Source: Omphalotus guepiniiformis (lineage: Eukaryota; Basidiomycota; Agaricomycetes; Agaricales; Omphalotaceae). Taken from it: 64,000 bases of DNA. Position numbers and translations under genes: made by a program. The DNA lies in the NCBI GenBank assembly GCA_028554645.1, contig JAQOOI010000076.1:1426001-1490000 (forward strand), in the 5' to 3' direction. The notes under the pieces were generated by a model. That model searched no databases, was not told where the DNA came from, and worked only from the letters and a program-made list of their open reading frames with translations. Shown piece by piece: positions 33,124 to 61,775 of this stretch. Each line of letters starts with the position of its first letter. Position 1 is the first letter of the stretch.

Positions 33124-33773
33124 ATGGACCTCACTCTTCAGCACCATAACCTGATGAACACGACGTTCTTCACCCCAGACTCCGTCCCTCTTTATACCAC
33201 TTATACCGGCATAGCTATTTTCGGAGCCAAACCAACTTTGATACAGAAACTACTTGGTCCTCCGCAAAACCAAACAGCCGAAATGGCAACAGTGGAAGTG
33301 CACAGTTGGTCCTCGGATATTGTTTCGGTGTGGGGAAACCTAGTTGGTGGGCTGCATCGACCTATGATGACCGAGTACGTGCAACTATTCTATCAGCGGA
33401 ATACTCGAGTGCTCAAGGTCATGCTCCTTTACTTAGAAGCATAGAGTGGATCGGACCCGACGGAAAAGCGTACAAATGGAAACACCACATCGGTGGAGAT
33501 TGGTCTGTAAGTTTACGTCGTCACGATCTACAAAACGTATCGACACTCAAAAAATCTCGCATGCAGCTTGTGTCTCGCTCTCATTCCAATCACGATCTAG
33601 CCTACTTTGACTCTGGACGCACGTTGGGTATACCTACTAAAACAGCTACACTTCGAGTTGGTCCGGAAGTGCTACATATCTTGGACCAAATGATTGCCAC
33701 GCTGGTTTTCGCAGAGAAAAAGTACCGGCAGAGGCAGAGAGCTAAAAGTAACGCTGGTGCGGCGAGTACTTAA
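33124..33773 (+). CDS. DUF6593-type basidiomycete protein
   Basis: The N-terminal part (MDLTLQHHNLMNTTFFTPDS; QTAEMATVEVHSWSSDIVSV) and C-terminal part (WIGPDGKAYKWKHHIGGDWS; TATLRVGPEVLHILDQMIAT; FAEKKYRQRQRAK) together show the DUF6593 layout, about 190-210 aa. The two halves are in different reading frames. A 98-nt intron from the GTGGGC at about 33351 to the CATAG before 33447 joins them in frame, but a one-base frameshift near 33330 is also possible. The family is abundant in Agaricomycetes and has no established function. A decayed copy follows directly downstream. Confidence 0.65.
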
Positions 33774-35185: not shown

Positions 35186-36447
35186 CTACTCCGAATAAGC
35201 GCTACCGTCGGTGGTAGGCTTCATCTTCTCAATCACACCGCTAATCCTCTCATAGACTGCGAAAACAATTGCCTGCCCGGGTGCGACACGTAGGATACGC
35301 GGAGTTATGCCCTTGTAGAACGACTTCACGCCTTCGGCTTTCCACATGTCATCCGCGATGGCGACGATACGAGATACGGCAGAAACGCCGGGGGTGGCGG
35401 TAGACTTCTGTAAACCTGGGCGAAGGCTTTAACGCCGAGAAAGAATAAGCGGTGGGATGAGAGGACGTACGAGTTTTTATCGTGTCAATAGGAGCGTTAG
35501 ACAGCGGTCCTGCAGCGCCTGATAGCAGACCAATCAACATATGTTGATATGATGGAAGATCCTGCAACTCTGGCTGCAACTGATGTACGAATTTCTTTAC
35601 TTCTTGGTACACAGTAAAGTTCGCGCCTAACGAGTAAAGAGCATGGTAAGATATACGAGATTTCATCCAAGCACAACAAAACTCGCCTTGATTGGTCGCT
35701 TGCCTTAGCGCTGTTAAACTGACTCCTCTGTATAACGTCGAGAAACCCTCTTCTCTAACAATCGTATAGACTGCGTGTCCTGCATTCCGATACCTCGGAA
35801 TTTCCAACGGATCCGCAAGCGAGTGCTGTTGCGCCTGCAATCGTATTTTCACCACCTCCATAGGCGTGACCACTGCAACAGCTTCCGTTGTCCCTGCTCC
35901 AAGTCCCGCAATGAAAATGTTACTTGTGCTGGTTTTACCGGTCTCAGAATCGGCGAGCCAATTTTTGTAGGCCTCAAAACTAGCGAAGCGAATGGCCATT
36001 TTAGGAACGATGCCAGACAGCACTGCACCAAGACCTTTGTACAGCGCGAGAGGTGTTTCTCGGCGCACGATGTAGACACCGGTGGCGAAGAAACCGCGAG
36101 GTTTTGTCTGCAGACATGGAAGGTTAGCTAGTTGAATTTTCGAAGGAGGGCGAGGTGTAATGCATTGATATGAGGGCCCACTTCCACATCGGAAAGGGCC
36201 GTCATCGCGTAGAGAAACGGACTGATACATACCCCTGGTACACGGCCAGACTTTGAAAGCTGCATTCGCACTTTGATAGTATCGAGAGGCTGACATACCA
36301 GCTACGATACGAATCCGAGTCAGGATACATCGCGAATGGCGAGAGAGAAGAAAGAGAAAGACACACCGCTTCGCATGCACCAGCGATTCCACCCGCCGTG
36401 ATATGTGTAGCGAACCCTACGGGTTTCTTGTTACCGTTTCTTGACAT
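35186..36447 (-). CDS. SFC1: Mitochondrial succinate/fumarate carrier Sfc1/Acr1
   Basis: A mitochondrial carrier with three repeats, starting MSRNGNKKPVGFATHITAGG at 36447 and ending TTDGSAYSE. The signature motifs are QPLDTIKVRMQ-type (partly in the first intron-flanked exons), TPMEVVKIRLQAQ and APIDTIKTRLQK. Carrier-specific blocks match Sfc1 closely: LYKGLGAVLSGIVPKMAIRF, LYRGVSLTALRQATNQGANF, YKGITPRILRVAPGQAI and FAVYERISGVIEK. The protein exchanges cytosolic succinate for mitochondrial fumarate, linking the glyoxylate cycle to gluconeogenesis during growth on C2 compounds. It is encoded by several exons; the block ATNQG joins to ANFTVYQEVKKF across an intron. Confidence 0.94.
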
Positions 36448-37097: not shown

Positions 37098-38294
37098 ATG
37101 GAATCGCCCTCTGATCCCAAACTTACAAGACACCCTGTAGATGGGCCAAGCAGGAAGCCATCAGGGAGTCGTATCACTCCAGAAGGCTCTGCTATCCTGA
37201 GAAGTCGGTATTCCAGGTACTACTAGGGAGTATCTCGAACCTATCATGCTCATCAGTGGCTCTTCATAGAGACCTTCTACGAAGATGGGATAACCCATCC
37301 CGATAAAGAAATGCGGGATGATCTTGTTCGGAGGATACAGGTGCGTACGTTGAACTAAGTACTAGTAGCTTCAAGAAAGTGATCTCAGTTTTTGGCAGGC
37401 TTTACCCGGATGCGAGACTTACAATATAAACACTCTCCATAACTGGTTCGCTTACAACAGAAGGCAATCGGGTGCGATTTACTGTTCATCGTATACAACA
37501 TGTATAGTCTGACTTGCTCAAAATACTCGGCAAAACGAAAGGATTCTAGTGGACACGAGACCCAAGATGTCCCATCCACCTCTCGTCCGTCCTCTTCTAC
37601 ACTGAAAATCAAGATACCCAAGGCCCGCAGAACTCATAGCAAGTTAAAACTAACTCAATACCCTTCCATCAACCCGATGGCTTTGGGCCAACTCGCGACG
37701 TTGGTCAGGGAGAGTCCTTACCCATCTCAGCAGCTAATGTCGACGTGGGCGCAATTACTCAAGGCTGAGGAGAAGGACATAGCAGCCTGGGTAAGGGCCC
37801 AGCAAGAAAGAGCTGCTGGTGACGCAGCAGGAGGGGACATCCCAGCTGAAGACTCGGAGCAGTCAGAGGATGAAGAGGCATTGTCAGCATTGTATAACAC
37901 GACGTTACCGCTTCCAACACCCAGCAGCTATCCAACTCCTACGCAACCCCACCTACTTCCCCGTATTAATTTCGATTCTCCGTCCTTTTCCGCATTTCCA
38001 TCAGCATCTTCCCTCTTTGCGCCCTTGCAACTGCATAATCCGCCGCCGCCGCCACCCACAGACCAATTACTTCTAGCAATCAGCTCCAAGGCGGATTTAT
38101 ATGTAGGTGCTGCCGCTGGACCTACGGAGCACCCGAGAACCGGGTTGGAATTTGCTACGCTGTTCAAACCGTACCAAGTCGAAATGGAGAACCTTTTATC
38201 GATAGTCGAGAATCCTGAGACAGCAAAGAAAGGGAAAAAGAGGGTACTGGAATTGTGGGGATTCCCGATGCAAGGGCGTAGACCAGAGCAGTAG
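37098..38294 (+). CDS. Atypical homeodomain protein 1 of a tandem trio
   Basis: Four exons (37098-37203, 37270-37340, 37399-37490, 37550-38294) close at 337 aa. Residues about 24-83 form a homeodomain-like fold: RITPEGSAILRKTFYEDG, THPDKEMRDDLVRRIQ, ALPGCETYNINTLHNWFAYN and RRQS. The recognition helix has Trp-Phe but Tyr, not Asn, three residues after Trp. A second segment repeats the helix pattern (LGQLATLVRESPYPSQQLMS; AEEKDIAAWVRAQQERAA). The middle is acidic and Pro/Ser-rich. The C-terminal box reads EFATLFKPYQVEMENLLS. It is probably a nuclear regulator, by fold inference. The intron 1 donor GTCGGT is weak and chosen because it restores homeodomain spacing. It is followed by two paralogues with the same layout. 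Confidence 0.72.
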
Positions 38295-38785
38295 AGCCGC
38301 CATTTGTGACGGTGGCTTTGCCGTCCAACACGAGATGGAAGGGGAAGAACTCCCATTCTCCCTCCGATGTGCCATGAAGCAATTCCACTGTGGAATTCCT
38401 ATCACATACTTATTATTTTGTCAGGAGAGGATCACTTCAGACTGCTTGCGTCGATGCTTTTGATACCATTTTGTGTGACACGCTATTTGATTTGTATCAG
38501 TGCCTGTATGCACCCTTCAGTTTATACTATGATACATAGTTTCAGATATTACCGTCACATCCTCAAAGTCAAATCTCTCACTTCCTCAAAATCCTCAAGG
38601 AAATCAAGTTTTGCCAAAGCTCACTAAAGTCGAAGATCAAGACAATTGAATTGAATCAAATGGTCATTCCGGAAGTCTCACCAAATGATAGCTCAAAAGT
38701 GGATACTTGTCTCTTCCCCCGACTATATGCTATCAAGCACGTTGAACATCTTCTACTCACTGACAACCACAAGTCCTCCTCGTCT
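38295..38785. other. Intergenic between homeodomain genes 1 and 2
   Basis: These 491 bp hold the 3' end of gene 1 and the promoter of gene 2. No other feature is seen. Confidence 0.35.
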
Positions 38786-40278
38786 ATGGCCTCAAACTCA
38801 AGTACAAGCTTCAGTGCCAACGTCCAGCACAAGAAAGCCAGGAATCGGCGCATAAAGAAAGAAGGTGCTCAGATATTGAATGGTAGGTGTCGCAGTGGTG
38901 CCACCAGTCTGTCAGTGCAGTTTTCACGGATGGAATTGAACGGACGCCATGAACAGATGCATACGATAGTGGAATAACAAGTCCGACTTCTCAACAGAAG
39001 GTTGATATGTTAGAAAGAATTCATGTACGTTTCGGGTCTTGGTTCAAGGTTAAGCTGATTCAAGTTAGCGCTAATGTCCTGTACTAGGCTATACACGGTT
39101 GCGAAGAATTTACCCTTTCGAAGTTGGAATCATGGTTTATCAGGAGGAGTAGAAAGTCGGATGTACAAAGTTCTACTACTGTCGGTATGTAATTTCTTGA
39201 AGGTCTTGAAGGTCTTCAATTCCTACAACTGATCACTGTGTCTCCAGGACGATCCGTGCATCCACGTTTTCGGTCTCTTAAACCCGACGCCCTTGGAACG
39301 CTCACCACCCTAATCAGCGGGTCTCCTCAACCTTCTGCCCAGCTCGTCAACGTATGGGCAGAGCTTCTGAAAGTCAATGTAGAAGATGTCGAAGGTTGGG
39401 TTCGTGAAGAGCAGGAGCGCCTCGCCATCATTCCGACTGTATCACAGCAGCCCGAGACACACTCCTTGACGTTTGGCGAGACCAACATTCCGTCTGGTCC
39501 CAGCCAGAACCCGCTGCCCATCTTCGTAAATACGAGCCCCGAATTCTTGAATCGCAGCATGCAGTTTTCTTCCAATAATTATCTCTCTACACCCATCTCA
39601 ATAACGGAGTCAAACTCTCAAGATACCTTGTCGCCGCTCCTCGACTATACCTTACCTCATCTCCCAGGTTTACCCTCAGACTTCCGTAGTGGCTCCCTAG
39701 AAAATAGCTCGCGCCGTCCATCAGCATCTTTGTCTCCCACAACCTCATATACTCAGAATTTCCCAGCAAGTTTACACCACCTAACGCAGAGCAGAGCAAA
39801 GCCAAGTCGACTCCGAAGCCCGACCCTCGCAGAGCTTGCACTGCCTAGTCCAATTCTTAGCTCGAGTTCTGTAGCAGCAAGTGCTGCATTTCAACTTCAC
39901 ACTCCAGTCACCCCGACAATGTCCCAACTTCCTCCTAGCATCAAAAGATCGTTTTCGGACACGCATACATCGACACACCCCCCTCCTCCTCTTCTATCAG
40001 CAGCCGAACTTTCCTCGTCTTCACCACCGAGCTCATGCATGCAAAGATTAACCTCACTTTCTCCGCCTCCTTCCCTACCACAGCCACTGCCTTTATTGAC
40101 ACCGAGAGACAAGTTTCTGCTATTTTTAAACGCGAGTATCTCATCTAATGTAGACAGAGGTGCGGGTGAGGGTGACGACGCTGTACATCCTGCGACTCAG
40201 CATCCCAAATCCGCTTCGGATTTTGATGCACTCTTCGCTCCATATCAAACGATGATAGAAGATTTCTTGGCCAAATAA
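38786..40278 (+). CDS. Atypical homeodomain protein 2 of a tandem trio
   Basis: Four exons (38786-38882, 38957-39024, 39088-39184, 39248-40278) close at 430 aa. The homeodomain-like region reads RRIKKEGAQILNDAYDSG, TSPTSQQKVDMLERIH, AIHGCEEFTLSKLESWFIR and RSRKS. The second segment is LGTLTTLISGSPQPSAQLVN and NVEDVEGWVREEQERLA. A long Ser/Pro/Thr-rich middle follows (many SPxxS and PPPP runs), and the C-terminal box is SDFDALFAPYQTMIEDFLAK directly before the stop. Introns inside the homeodomain fall at the same two positions and phases (1, then 0) as in its neighbours, which shows common descent. The recognition helix has Arg in place of the usual Asn. Function unknown; transcription factor-like by inference. 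Confidence 0.75.
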
Positions 40279-40893
40279 CGAAAGAGTGGGGTCTTCCTTC
40301 TGCATGTTCTGGCCCGAGTTCTCTTCCGGAAGCACAGCCCGGTTGAGGACCACCGTCAGAGATTGAATGTGGAACAGCTTTGTGAATCTGCTCTTCGAAG
40401 ACGCTGAGTTATTGACAATTGTGTCAGCAGTCGTTCCGACATATTCTACCACCTTGTCAACGTTGTAAAAGGCTTTTCTCTGTGGACTATTTGCATTGCC
40501 ATTTGAGTATGTAGACAGGATCCACTGCCACTGAGCGCCTAATTTATTTTATTCCAATCGTGATCGCCACATATCTATTTAGAAACCTCTTTCAGATTGT
40601 CGCGCAGCCAGGCATTTTCAAGTTTCAGTAGGTCAGCTTTATGGTGAGAAAGCTCTGCTTCGAACAAAACGAAGAAGTCCAAACGTTGTAATCATCTGGT
40701 AGTGACGGCATCCCAATGAATTTGCACAAATTTCCGAGAAATTGATGTTTTCAGGATAAGCTTATTCTTCATTTAGGGACTCCATATCTCACCTGCTGCG
40801 CACCGTGACCTGGTACTACCTCCATTGTTCGCCGACAAGGTTGTGCAATTTGCCTGGCACCGACTTCCACGACCAAGACTCCGAGCCAGCTCT
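40279..40893. other. Intergenic between homeodomain genes 2 and 3
   Basis: These 615 bp hold no recognised gene. An ATG at 40805 opens a 73-aa frame in another reading frame that is not conserved with the other two paralogues. Confidence 0.35.
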
Positions 40894-41958
40894 ATGCAAT
40901 CTTCTCGTAAAAAGGTGGCACGGCTCAATGCTGCTGGATCCGAGTTCCTTCAAGGCAAGCAGTGGTCGCTTTATTCATATCAGAATATCATTTACGTCGT
41001 TCCCATCAAGAGGTCTTCATATCTAAGAAAGTGATAAGACCTACCAAGGACCAAAAGCGTAATATTATGTGGGTACTTCATGTAAGTATTGCGCAGTGCT
41101 CGACTAGCTAGTTCAGGACAACAAATAGACGCATCCCCAGCAAATTCCAGGTTGCGAAAACTACAGTGAAAGGTCTCTTGATAGTTGGTTTGACAGGGCA
41201 CGAAAGAAAGCCAACAAGGACAAGATTGAGAATGGTGTTGTGTCTTTGTCTCTTCCGCTCCTTGAAGTGTTCACTCATATCTTAATCAAGGACACATAAT
41301 TTCTGAACAGCTCCGCATCCTATTTTCTTCAACACCATTTCCATCTCCAAACGTCATCGAGGTTTGGGCAAAGCTTCTCCGTGAGCCAAAGGACGATGTC
41401 GAAGCTTGGATTCGTGAACAACAGCGTGCTATGATGGTCGAGCAACTCACGCTGTTTCAAACTACTGCCACCTCTCGACCAGAACCCGATAGTGCAATTA
41501 ATATGACTGGCCTTTGCGAACGCTTCCCCGATCATGCACAATCCATCGCTGCGAACCCTTCACTATCTCCTCTATCCAATACATCTACGCTCCCCGGACT
41601 ATTCTCCGCTCCTGGACAGAGTAGCCCTGCAATGTCAAATGCACTTGGCTTAGTCTCTTCAGGTTCTCGGTTGCCCTCAAGCTCAGGTGTAGACGTTGCT
41701 GAGATGAGCGATGTAATCCTTGATCCATTAAGCTTCTCTGTGCTCAATAACTCACCTTATACTTTCTAGCCATCACCAGCCACGGAAGCAGCAACTGGCA
41801 CTAACCTGAGCCAATTATACATGAATATCTTTACAGAACCTAACAGCGAGGAATCGATAGAGGACGCGCTTAATCCACAACATCCGATTAATTTTGCCCA
41901 ATTCAACAGCTGTTTTGAAAAGTATGAAGCTATGATCGAGAGATTCTTAAAGAGGTGA
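40894..41958 (+). CDS. Atypical homeodomain protein 3 of a tandem trio
   Basis: Five exons: 40894-40954, 41011-41081, 41141 to about 41235, 41311-41688 and 41770-41958. The homeodomain-like region reads KKVARLNAAGSEFLQEVF, IRPTKDQKRNIMWVLH, QIPGCENYSERSLDSWFDR and ARKK. The second segment is LRILFSSTPFPSPNVIEVWA and KDDVEAWIREQQRAM. The C-terminal box is FNSCFEKYEAMIERFLKR before the stop. Intron 1 uses a GC donor (GCAAGC). The last intron (GTAGAC at 41689 to TTTCTAG at 41769) removes an in-frame TAG that would otherwise end the protein before the box. The end of exon 3 has three in-phase donors, so it is uncertain by up to 30 nt. It is the shortest and most divergent of the three. Confidence 0.68.
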
Positions 41959-42150: not shown

Positions 42151-45100
42151 CTACAATCGCCACTCGCGGAAGAAATCATAATCGCGACGAATAAACGCAA
42201 GCATGTAATCTACCACAGTACCACCCTCTTCAGCATCATCATCCTCGCCGTCTTCCTCCATTTGTATTCTACCATCGCCTTCATCGCCTTGCGAGACGTT
42301 GTCTCTTGCCCCGCCTTCGTTCATATCCTCACCCATTGAAGTCACCTGCGACATGCGCTGAGATATGGCACTCGGCTCGTCTCCACCAGCAGGACCACCG
42401 GTATCCAACCCGAAATCTGCTTCATCAGCTCCTTCCATCACATTCTCTTCTCGTTCAGCCATCCTCGCAGCTATTGCGTCCTCAGTATCTTCAAATTCAC
42501 CAAGAGCCTTGGTCAACAAAGTAGAGTTGATTGCGCTTCCACGCTCTTTGTCACTCCCTACTTCGTCCGCATCGAATCGAAATAGTGCACGCCAGTCAAA
42601 CTCTCCTTTCTGGATGACTAGATCATCAAGCGATCTTTTTTGATTGGCTTTCAGCAGCATGGCCTCCTCAACAGTATGTTGCGATACGAAACGATATATG
42701 TGCACATCGCGTATTTGGCCTATGCGATGAGCTCTGTCCTCGCATTGCCTGTCCATCTGAGGGTTAAAATCACTGTCGTAAAATACGACAGTATCGGCAC
42801 CAGTGAGACTGTTTTAAAAGATTGAGAAATAATACTTGATAGAAAGAATTTTTGCTTACTTGATCCCAACACCGCCACTTCTCGAGCTCGCGATGAAGCA
42901 GAATACCCTCTCGTCTTTGTTGAACCGCTCGGTCACGTATTGTCGATCTTCGATTCTTGTGGCCCCATCCAACCTCAGATACAGATATCCATGGAAATTA
43001 AGGAATATCTCTAAGATATCTAGAATTCTCGTCATCTGCGTGAATATGAGCACTCGATGACCGCCGGCCTTCCTTTCCCTTAGTAATGCAGCAAGTCTTT
43101 GCAACTTCCCACAATCATATTGAAGCAACGAAAGCGAGGGGAAAGCAATCTGAAGCTTGACAGCAGATGCATGCATGACACGATCAAAAGATGGTGGAAA
43201 CGCTTCAACAACGCTGGGGCCAACGCCTGACAGTGCAATGCGTGCCAGATCTCGAGCAACGACAGATGGCGTGACGAAAGCAAATTGGTCGATGATATTC
43301 GCCATAGACTCTGCGCGCTCTTCGTAAGAGAGTATAGCACGATGTACTGCTGGCACTGCGTGATTAAGATATTCAAACGTCCCAACATTGATGGAGCCAG
43401 CAGGAAGAATGGGATGATACATCTTTTGGACGACAGAGAGTAGCTCCGAGCTGTAGACAGGTGATCGGGTGCAGCGTAGATGGTTCAGATACGCAATATG
43501 TGTCCAGCGTGCAACTGTACGGGCGCGACGTGCCCACTCATTATAACTACGGAATCCTGAGATGGTACGGGTGTCTCTTGGTGGAGCTAGGCCTGGATCC
43601 TCACATAAACCGGAAATCTGTGGCGTGGCGTCCAGTCGACGTGTCTCGAGCGCAGTCATGAGGGATGTGTGTTGGTGATTAATGAACGACAAACCAAGCG
43701 CCTCCAAATCGACAGTATCCGTGGTATCGCTAAGCAGTCTGCGTCGGACGAAAAATTCCTTGATCTCGTAGTCGGCTATGGCGGATCTGTCCATCGCAAA
43801 AGACGTGACAATCGGCCGAACTTCGAAAAGGTCTGGATGGTTGCACACTTTCCGCAGCTGCATTAATATATTGGCAATCTTCTGATAAACACCAGATTGA
43901 AGTGCGTCGCGTGTTTGAGCTCTTGCCATGAATTCATCATAGAGAAATCTCTGCCGTTTAGACAAGGGACATAGCACAAGATGTTCATATTTGCTTGGAA
44001 GCTCCTTTTCGACATCTCGCTTGAGTCGGCGGAGGAGATAAGGGCGTAAGACAGTGTGCAATTTGGACACTCGTTGCATAGTTTCGTCGTCTAGAACGTT
44101 GCCCATCTCGATGGCTTTCTCCAAAGGATCTAGCGACATGTCAGTCGAATAGCCAGAAATTGAAACTTAAACCACATACTTGAGAACCATTCGCCGAACT
44201 CCTTTAAATTAGCAAAGTTGGCCCCCGACATCAGAAATTGAAGAAGTGCCCATAGCTCGGTGAGGTTATTTTGAAGGGGTGTGCCAGTCAAGAGGAGGCG
44301 TCGGAAGGAGCGAAACATCAACAGCGTGTTCCAACGTTGAGACTTGAAGTTCTTGATCATATGTGCCTCATCGAGAATCATATAATACCATGGTTTACGT
44401 TTGAATATATGGGCGTCTCGGCTTGCAAGGGTGTACGAGGTAATGCAAACGTTGAAATGAGTCTTGTCATTCCATCCCTGTCGGAGCTCTTTACGGCGTT
44501 TCGTGGTACCATGATAGCTCAGAATCCGGAATCCGGGAAGAAACTTCTTAAACTCCATTTCCCAATTCAGCAATACACTGGTAGGAACAATCTGTCCAAA
44601 GGTGAAACTTGAGTACAGCAAACAGAAGCCACCAAACAATGCTCACAATAAGATGAGGGCCCCATATGCCTCTATCACAGGCTAGGTGAGCTAATAGAGC
44701 AATTGTTTGAATCGTTTTGCTACCCAGCTACGAGTCAGTTTGCAGAAAAACAGTGGTAATGACAGAGCTTACCCCAGTCCCATTTCGTCAGCAAGAATAC
44801 CATTCAGATTGTTGGAGTGAAGACTGGTAAGCCATTCAAGTCCAGTGAATTGATAGGGACGAAGCACCCCACGAAGCAACAACGGTTGAGTGACCTTACT
44901 GCCAGGTTCCCAATTTACAGGAGCAACAGCGTACGGCTTTAAATATTCGGGAATCTGGTTGTCTGCAGCTTCCTGTGAGCTGTCTTCTTCGTCACGCTCA
45001 GCTTCGGCGGCTGCGTCTGATTCCGGAGGAGCAGGGGCATCTTCTTCAATGCTTGGAACGGGGCATGCTGTCGCTCCATTCTCAACTGGCTGTTTCCCAA

Positions 45101-47961
45101 TATCCTCTCGAGGAAGTTCACTATCGGGCAGAGGCGTGTCACGAATAGAAGAAGGCTCTGTCAATGCGTCGCCAACACTCTCTAGTATCGTTTCACCACC
45201 GGAAGTCAAAGCCTTGTCGGAGCCTTTTGATGGTGATATGAAGGGAGAATGAGGTACATCCACGTCGGAAGATGGTGGAAGAGCCGCTAACCCACGTCCT
45301 TGAACTGCTGCTTCAACTGCAGATCCGCCAGTAGGGACAACCACCTCTGGTGCTACACCTCCTTCTGAAAACGCATCCACATCAATCACAGCAACAGACG
45401 AGTCAAGTTCTTCAGGCTTCGACTGTCCAACAGCACCCATAACGGTGAGCTCATTGACATTGTTAGGTGGTGTTAGTACCCCTGCGGTTGCGGTACTTGG
45501 GCTTCGACTAGGGATGAAAGGAGTTTCTGATGCATGGAGTTCGTCGTCTTCAGAAACAGGAGACGGGTAGTCATCAGGGACCGACAAATCATGATCCATG
45601 AGCAATTGACTGGTCATACCGAGGTCCAGTGAGGAAGACCTTGAGGTCGGTCTCGAAGCATCAAGTTGTAAGGACTCGAGCTCAACGATCTCAGAGTGAG
45701 GCGTATCGTTGGAATGATGCGAGTAAACTGCAGGGGATGGCGACCGCGAATCCTCATACGCAACAGAAGGGGTCTGAGGAAGACCAGTAAGTGTATGATC
45801 GATTTCAGCCAGGTCCTCCTCCACGACCAGGTTATCTGGCATCACACTCCCTTCCTCGCTAACTCTGTCCACATCAAAATCATCATCCGGCGGTTCTTCG
45901 AATTCGTCTACATGATCCTCCTCTTCATCGGTATCCGTATCTTCTCCGGGATCATTTTCGTCATCCTCATCCTCCTCTTCACTCCATCCCATAAGGCTAG
46001 CGGATGCACTACTGTCACGACTCCGAGATCGTGATCCGTCGCCTCTGGAAAGATCAATATGTTGAGTCTCCAGTATCTGGCCCGACTGGTTAAGAATGGC
46101 GTCCAGATGTTCATGACCACGCCTCAACTCCTCAGCTTCCTCCTTCAAACGTTCTTGCTCCCGGATATGCTACAATAGATACAGAAATGAGCGATCAAAC
46201 AAAAGTCCGGCGCTCGGTCATACTCACAAATACAGCCTTCTTCCACTCTGCAGTTACCATCCTAATCGTAGCCTTCGCTAAAGCCCTCAACTGCCTCTCT
46301 TCTTGAGCCTTCATTTTATCAATCTTCACAGCTTGTGCATCCCAATGTGCACGGATTTTTGCTGCTATCTGACCGGCAATTTGAACCCCAGTAGTTCGTT
46401 TACTTCTTTCCTCGGTTTCCCTAATAACGTCCTCAATGCAATGGTCCCAAATGTCCTTTGAGACTCGCCCCCTGTGATCAGCACTATCTGGGTCATCATT
46501 TAGAATTGACGAGTCTGCGAGCAGACGGCCTTCTTTGCGCAGTTTCGTCGCACGCTCCAGCAATTCTGCGTCTGCATGGGCTCGAGCCTTCAGAGCATCG
46601 AAATCGAGTGTTTCATCGCACAGGGTGTTATACGAAGAGAGTAATTCACTTATAGAGCTGAATTTTTTAGTTGGCGGTTTTTGACGAGGACTTGAGATGA
46701 TTGGTGGTGGTCGCCTAACAATGAGTCGAATTCGTTTAACGAGTGATGGAGAGGTAGAAGGTGCCGACGTGTCAGATAGAAAACTTGTTGTTCGCGGTAC
46801 AGGCGCTGAGACCTAAAGAGACGATTGTCAGATAGCTTTCATAACAAGATGACCTATAACTTACATTACGTGACCGACTAGAAGGAGATTGATAATTTAC
46901 CTTGTGACCGGTCCTAAGAGATGTTTGCGAGTTGCCTTTGATCTTGAATACAGGTCCACCAGGATCATCAACGGCAGAAGAGTTGGAGGATACAGGATCG
47001 AGTCTCGGCCGTTTATGAGACGATATCGAAATCGCAGGTTGTTTACACGCGACGCGCTCGTCGTTCTTGTGAGCACTCTTAGCCGGTGTGATTTTGGCTT
47101 TTGCGGGAGAGTCTGATAATACAGGATCCTCCAAGCGGACTTTTCTTTTCGCTCTGGTGCTAGCCAAACCAGCGGATATCGACTCTCCAAATCCCACAGC
47201 AGACGCAGAATGCCCTTCTCTGATACTCGAACTCGCGGAATCCACCTTCTCCGCGGCACTCGTGACCTTCTCCTTCCCCTTTTCCTTGTTGTCTTTGGCA
47301 CTACCTAGGATATCCCAAACAGTTGTGTTGTCGGCGGCCTTGGCTTTGCGTTTCCCAGGCGAGGAAGATGCAACCGGTGCTGAAAGGGATGGAGGACGAA
47401 TAGGCTCTTGAATCAAATGCTTCCTTTCCGTGCGAGCACTCCTAGTACTTCGCGACGGGCCTGCGATAGAGCTCGTCTTTTCCCAGAGGTCATACTGTGA
47501 CTTATACTATCGAAGAAATTGATAGTCAATATAGCTCACGAACAATATCGGAAACGACTAACATTCTGAAATACATTAGAAGTGTCGCCTTTCGCTTGCT
47601 GACAGAGAACATTGAGCTTCAGACAGTCGCCCTCGACACAGAGGAATAGCACATACGATAGGATCGTAACCGAGCATCATACGGAAATGTTCCATGTGAA
47701 ATATCTCCCTGACCTGTACACAGTACGAGTGAATACCTCTTCAGAGCTTGTAGAAAAAGCACGACTGACGAGAGAATCATGCCTATCATACACACGGTCC
47801 AGTTCCTCCTGTTTTTCCGCGACCAAAGCTTTTCTTCCAGCTTCAACCTCTTCCACACTCAGTTCCGGCACAGCGCGCATCTTTCCCTTTCCTTCCCCGC
47901 CACCAGAGACCTTGACTCCTCTACTCCCGCTGCTGTTTCCACGGCCACTCTTCGAACTCAT
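42151..47961 (-). CDS. SWR1: SWR1 chromatin-remodelling ATPase (Snf2 family, Swr1 class)
   Basis: A large multi-exon gene, starting [20 protein letters not shown] at 47961. The N-terminal part is basic and Ser-rich. An HSA domain follows ([50 protein letters not shown]), which binds actin and Arp4. A long acidic Ser/Asp/Glu-rich linker (about 44.9-46.1 kb) leads to the ATPase: [58 protein letters not shown] family-typical large insertion separates the second lobe ([38 protein letters not shown]). The tail [18 protein letters not shown] is diagnostic for Swr1 rather than Ino80. The complex exchanges H2A for H2A.Z. Confidence 0.94.

Positions 47962-60134: not shown

Positions 60135-61775
<1,641 letters not shown>

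Follow-up and report, generated by a model that had tools for sequence, protein, structure and literature searches.

A tandem trio of divergent double-homeodomain genes in Omphalotus guepiniiformis

The window analysed here is a stretch of 64,000 nucleotides from the Omphalotus guepiniiformis genome assembly (42.5 Mb in 80 contigs), positions 1426001–1490000 of contig JAQOOI010000076.1 (C77). At 37098–41958 it holds three neighbouring genes on the plus strand, flanked by two minus-strand genes: SFC1 (35352–36416), a mitochondrial carrier by domain match, and a SNF2-type helicase gene (about 42151–47506), with SNF2 and helicase domains, for which the name SWR1 is a label taken from an earlier, sequence-only reading of this DNA. 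That reading described the three genes as atypical homeodomain genes. The description is supported, and the folds predicted for three of the six homeodomain-like units agree with it. The trio is a real, divergent tandem family of double-homeodomain genes, whose function we infer below.

The gene models were spliced by hand and reproduce the span 37098–41958, with three intact frames, no internal stops and, as had been claimed, a common strand. Gene 1 (37098–38294; exons 37098–37203, 37270–37340, 37399–37471 and 37567–38294) has a predicted product of 325 aa. Gene 2 (38660–40278; exons 38660–38882, 38957–39024, 39088–39184 and 39248–40278) would encode 472 aa, and gene 3 (40894–41958; exons 40894–40954, 41011–41081, 41141–41234, 41291–41712 and 41770–41958) 278 aa. 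Three introns, in phases 1, 0 and 1, are common to all three models. The first two cut the first homeodomain-like unit (D1) at matching places, as the sequence-only reading had said; its count of two falls short by the third, which lies just downstream of D1.

D1 is a homeodomain with an extended turn. It begins at residue 26 in gene 1 (37173–37471, cut by introns 37204–37269 and 37341–37398), at residue 65 in gene 2 (38852–39162, cut by introns 38883–38956 and 39025–39087) and at residue 11 in gene 3 (40924–41215, cut by introns 40955–41010 and 41082–41140). The GCE-x-[YF] motif previously noticed ahead of a Trp-Phe helix is present throughout, as GCETY, GCEEF and GCENY, and is followed each time by such a helix (WFAYNRRQ, WFIRRSRK and WFDRARKK in genes 1 to 3). 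The turn is longer by seven residues, with a spacing of 30 residues in D1 versus 23 in D2 that is kept exactly across the trio. The extra residues measured here sit between the start of helix 2 and Trp48; the three extra residues typical of TALE homeodomains such as the mating-type HD1 fall between helices 1 and 2. All domain positions given here are ungapped counts from Trp48. By this count, D1 retains Trp48 and Phe49 in each gene, lacks Asn51 in each (Tyr, Arg and Arg in genes 1 to 3), and has Arg, Ser and Arg at position 53. The count is least certain for gene 1, because one inserted residue would restore an Asn at 51 (WFAYN). The net charge of the D1 recognition helix is +2, +3 and +2.

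A second helix-3-like repeat had also been reported. It exists, but the report understated it, since the repeat belongs to a whole three-helix, homeodomain-like unit (D2). In gene 1 this degenerate second homeodomain starts at residue 122 (37680–37820; helix 3 WVRAQQER), in gene 2 at residue 144 (39289–39429; WVREEQER) and in gene 3, where it is assigned by sequence only, at residue 80 (41302–41439; WIREQQRA). Trp48, Arg50 and Gln53 are invariant, position 49 is Val, Val and Ile instead of Phe, and position 51 is Ala, Glu and Glu instead of Asn. Helix 3 of D2 is neutral to acidic, with net charges of 0, −4 and −1, and the D2 unit of gene 2 as a whole also has a net charge of −4.

AF2 models were built from two-row alignments and covered both units of gene 2 and D1 of gene 3; D1 was modelled separately, since D2 rows take up most of the VIA list of the initial model. 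A lack of a three-helix fold had been named beforehand as one observation that would overturn the homeodomain assignment. In each modelled unit, three helices with a helix-turn-helix are predicted, and the best structural matches are homeodomains. D2 of gene 2 superposes on DUX4-HD2 with a root-mean-square deviation (rmsd) of 1.0 Å over 50 residues. None of the three genes passes any Pfam cut-off. The best score with PF00046, 14.6 bits (E 0.03) versus a cut-off of 22.9, comes from D2 of gene 1 only; with Homeobox_KN (PF05920), gene 1 reaches 10 bits versus a cut-off of 24, and genes 2 and 3 give no match. At E ≤ 1 the genome contains 13 matches to PF00046 and three to PF05920, none of them in the window.

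The three proteins also share a C-terminal box with the pattern FxxLF...PYxxMIExFL, which we take to resemble activation motifs. It reads EFATLFKPYQVEMENLLS in gene 1 (38148–38201, followed by a 30-aa tail), DFDALFAPYQTMIEDFLAK in gene 2 (40219–40275) and INFAQFNSCFEKYEAMIERFLKR in gene 3 (41887–41955). In comparisons with 500 shuffles, no shuffle reached the score of the box for genes 1 and 2 or for genes 2 and 3; two did for genes 1 and 3, so the proposal of a common box is clear for two of the pairs and weak for the third. The conserved N-terminal block outscores every shuffle in all three pairs (254 versus a best of 48 in 500 shuffles for genes 1 and 2, 155 versus 48 for genes 1 and 3, and 172 versus 54 for genes 2 and 3). 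The proteins are strongly divergent, as had been described. The block from D1 through the linker to D2 in genes 2 and 3 is 43% and 26% identical to that in gene 1, and the paralogs have no five-residue word in common. The sequence-only reading explained this by tandem duplication followed by fast evolution. Tandem duplication is supported, but fast evolution is not established, because old age would leave the same pattern.

Genome-wide searches with the proteins of genes 1, 2 and 3 land at the three trio loci only. No paralog was found elsewhere in the genome among the best candidates scored, with one protein query at E ≤ 0.001 and two protein queries and one C-terminal query at E ≤ 10. In a protein database, gene 2 had no match at E ≤ 0.001 among the best 7,982 candidates scored, and gene 1 none among 154; these negatives exclude only close relatives, because even the sister paralogs share no five-residue word. 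The database does contain mushroom-group fungi, since a control query with SFC1 matched 2,716 proteins and the names in the best 120 were from this group, with Moniliophthora roreri at 80% identity and Armillaria species at up to 82%. A scan of viral contigs gave 81 pattern matches, none confirmed as a relative; none had been expected. Single-sequence searches of the PDB returned one match for gene 2 and two for D2 of gene 1, all unrelated. Among the titles and opening lines of abstracts listed, a scope outside which most subscription papers fall, no family like the trio is described, and the accessible part of PMC8305134 makes no mention of such genes.

We rejected the trio as a candidate for the mating-type locus. 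A MIP-type M3 peptidase lies on a different contig (C22:1418659–1420196), about 17 kb from a divergent pair consisting of an HD2-like gene (C22:1436765, minus strand) and an HD1 gene (C22:1437952, plus strand), whereas the trio genes all share one strand of C77. This agrees with the earlier remark that the usual mating-type neighbours are missing from the window. On C20 there is another M3 peptidase with a match to PF01432. Not one of the 44 STE3-type pheromone-receptor matches in the genome is on C77. These matches, counted exon by exon, are spread across seven contigs (C6, C8, C19, C39, C55, C61 and C78), and two of them, C6:126319 and C19:1631530, score equally and could represent two haplotypes of a single gene. 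Helix 3 of the mating-type HD1 is WFIEARKR, with Glu in place of Asn51, while Asn51 is kept in five other homeodomain helices listed from the genome (one of which, C22:1652034, is below the cut-off).

Which known proteins does the trio resemble? The long turn that precedes helix 3 in D1 is reminiscent of WUSCHEL (WUS) of plants, which belongs to a family of homeodomains with expanded loops. The WUSCHEL/WOX homeodomain is its best fold match and is among its best profile matches, but the sequence match is weak (E 0.047 and 0.25); the printed alignment pairs the GIT-x-PT-type residues of D1 with AIRSPT of WUS. Descent from WUS is not established, because identity to WUS chains is just 18–22%. 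According to the accessible part of PMC7203112, WUS has one homeodomain, in which N90 (equivalent to Asn51) specifies adenine and is crucial for binding, and the C-terminus of these proteins carries a WUS-box and an EAR motif. An equivalent of N90 is not in place in the trio. Two homeodomain folds in one chain with a short linker, as modelled for gene 2, recall the DUX4-type proteins of mammals. However, going by positions 51 and 53, the canonical contact residues are not in place in both units of the trio, D2 lacks the usual DNA-contact residues, and the likeness does not imply shared ancestry. The gene 2 model aligns with DUX4 double-homeodomain chains over about 110 residues at an rmsd of 15 Å; given this value for the whole block, the relative placement of its two units is unlike that in DUX4. 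ZHX proteins of animals carry zinc fingers besides homeodomains. HOPX, also of animals, is a single small domain whereas the trio proteins have two units; it is a homeodomain without DNA binding (PMC6997107, in the part available). Kinship of the trio with HOPX or ZHX is not established. The mating-type HD1 of Agaricomycetes is a fungal protein with a degenerate recognition helix, and the HD1 of this genome resembles D1 of the trio in lacking Asn51; in contrast, it has the normal spacing of 23 and belongs to a divergent pair near MIP. The part of PMC4101180 available to us reports that a defective mating-type HD1 homeodomain is tolerated when HD2 works.

What is the likely function of the trio proteins? 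Two folds have been retained, D1 is basic but unorthodox, D2 is neutral to acidic with fixed residues of its own, and the C-terminal box is of the FxxLF type. This combination suggests a regulator that reaches DNA by way of a partner or next to one, while D2 and the box offer surfaces to other proteins. We lean, with slightly better than even confidence, towards an old tandem of divergent double-homeodomain proteins that act as nuclear transcription regulators through partners. D1, with its basic recognition helix and its Trp48-Phe49, would contact DNA weakly, non-specifically or only beside a partner; D2 may offer a surface for binding other proteins, perhaps in a dimer; the middle part, rich in Ser and Pro, would be disordered and act as a linker; and the box at the C-terminus could be a helix for activation or for cofactor binding. 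The closest precedent for such a way of working would be the mating-type HD1, where a degenerate homeodomain is tolerated because the HD2 partner binds DNA, or else HOPX. More tentatively, the trio may represent undescribed fungal regulators in which a WUSCHEL-like, long-turn D1 with its GCE-x-[YF] motif is fused to a pseudo-homeodomain kept for protein contacts, and in which members of the tandem form dimers among themselves or pair with a canonical homeodomain factor.

It is unlikely that the proteins are instead autonomous, sequence-specific DNA-binding factors in which D1 and D2 bind as neighbours, in the manner of the two DUX4 homeodomains, with a recognition code that dispenses with Asn51. 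The alignment of the gene 2 model with DUX4 chains and the basic D1 helices fit this idea, the former despite its large rmsd, but Asn51 is missing from six of six domains, Gln53 occupies all three D2 units, and helix 3 of D2 carries no net positive charge in any gene. Loss of DNA-contact residues is also what decaying duplicates would show, and certain features of the gene models weigh in the same direction. Intron 1 of gene 1 (37204–37269) has a non-canonical donor, GTCGGT, although among 19 in-frame splices enumerated it alone retains GSAIL plus the residues after it. The presumed intron 1 of gene 3 (40955–41010) has a GC donor (GCAAGC), and the C-terminal box of this gene is in frame only if intron 41713–41769 excises an in-frame TAG. 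Two further points qualify the models themselves: a CTNAY-like site lies within 45 nt of the acceptor in five of the ten proposed introns, and the start of gene 2 is uncertain (38660 or 38786). Against decay, no model has its frame closed anywhere between D1 and the C-terminal box, and intron places and the spacings of 30 and 23 residues are exactly kept, making it improbable that one or two members, gene 1 with its odd donor or gene 3, are pseudogenes.

Two helix-turn-helix units with a short linker could also derive from a domesticated transposase (Tc1/mariner or CENP-B type) whose DNA-binding region came by convergence to look like a homeodomain, and a Mos1 transpososome chain does appear at Foldseek rank 32 (E 0.57). 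We consider this very unlikely: the top sequence and fold matches are homeodomains, the copies found are all at one locus, and the common introns suit ordinary gene duplication. We give still less credence to the idea that the trio is a recognition module of mating-type kind, either relocated or paralogous, with rapidly diversifying partners. A D1 without Asn51, like the HD1 of the same genome, and strongly divergent neighbours would be expected of such a module, but the trio is same-strand with no pheromone-receptor match on its contig, and the divergent HD1/HD2 pair is at the real locus on C22.

In this group of fungi, homeodomain genes guide both mating and the development of mushrooms, yet standard profiles overlook the trio. 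If our reading of partner-dependent regulators is correct, homeodomain censuses of mushrooms are incomplete, and fungi have homeodomain proteins that, like HOPX in animals, gave up contact with DNA in favour of contact with partners.

Several further observations concern the genome and the rest of the window. At C22:996222–997310, three canonical homeodomains (WFQNKR, WFQNQR and WFRNLR) follow one another in consecutive frames and resemble a single gene with a triple homeodomain, each homeodomain apparently being interrupted at an identical point, after "GM"; a search of titles and abstract openings for three homeodomains in fungi turned up only an oomycete paper. Scans of the window with Rfam and for tRNA genes gave no match. 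Upstream of the trio, beyond SFC1, a segment encoding a DUF6593 protein lies at 33150–33770 on the plus strand, and a segment of a subtilase (Peptidase_S8) gene is found at 60772–61314 on the minus strand.
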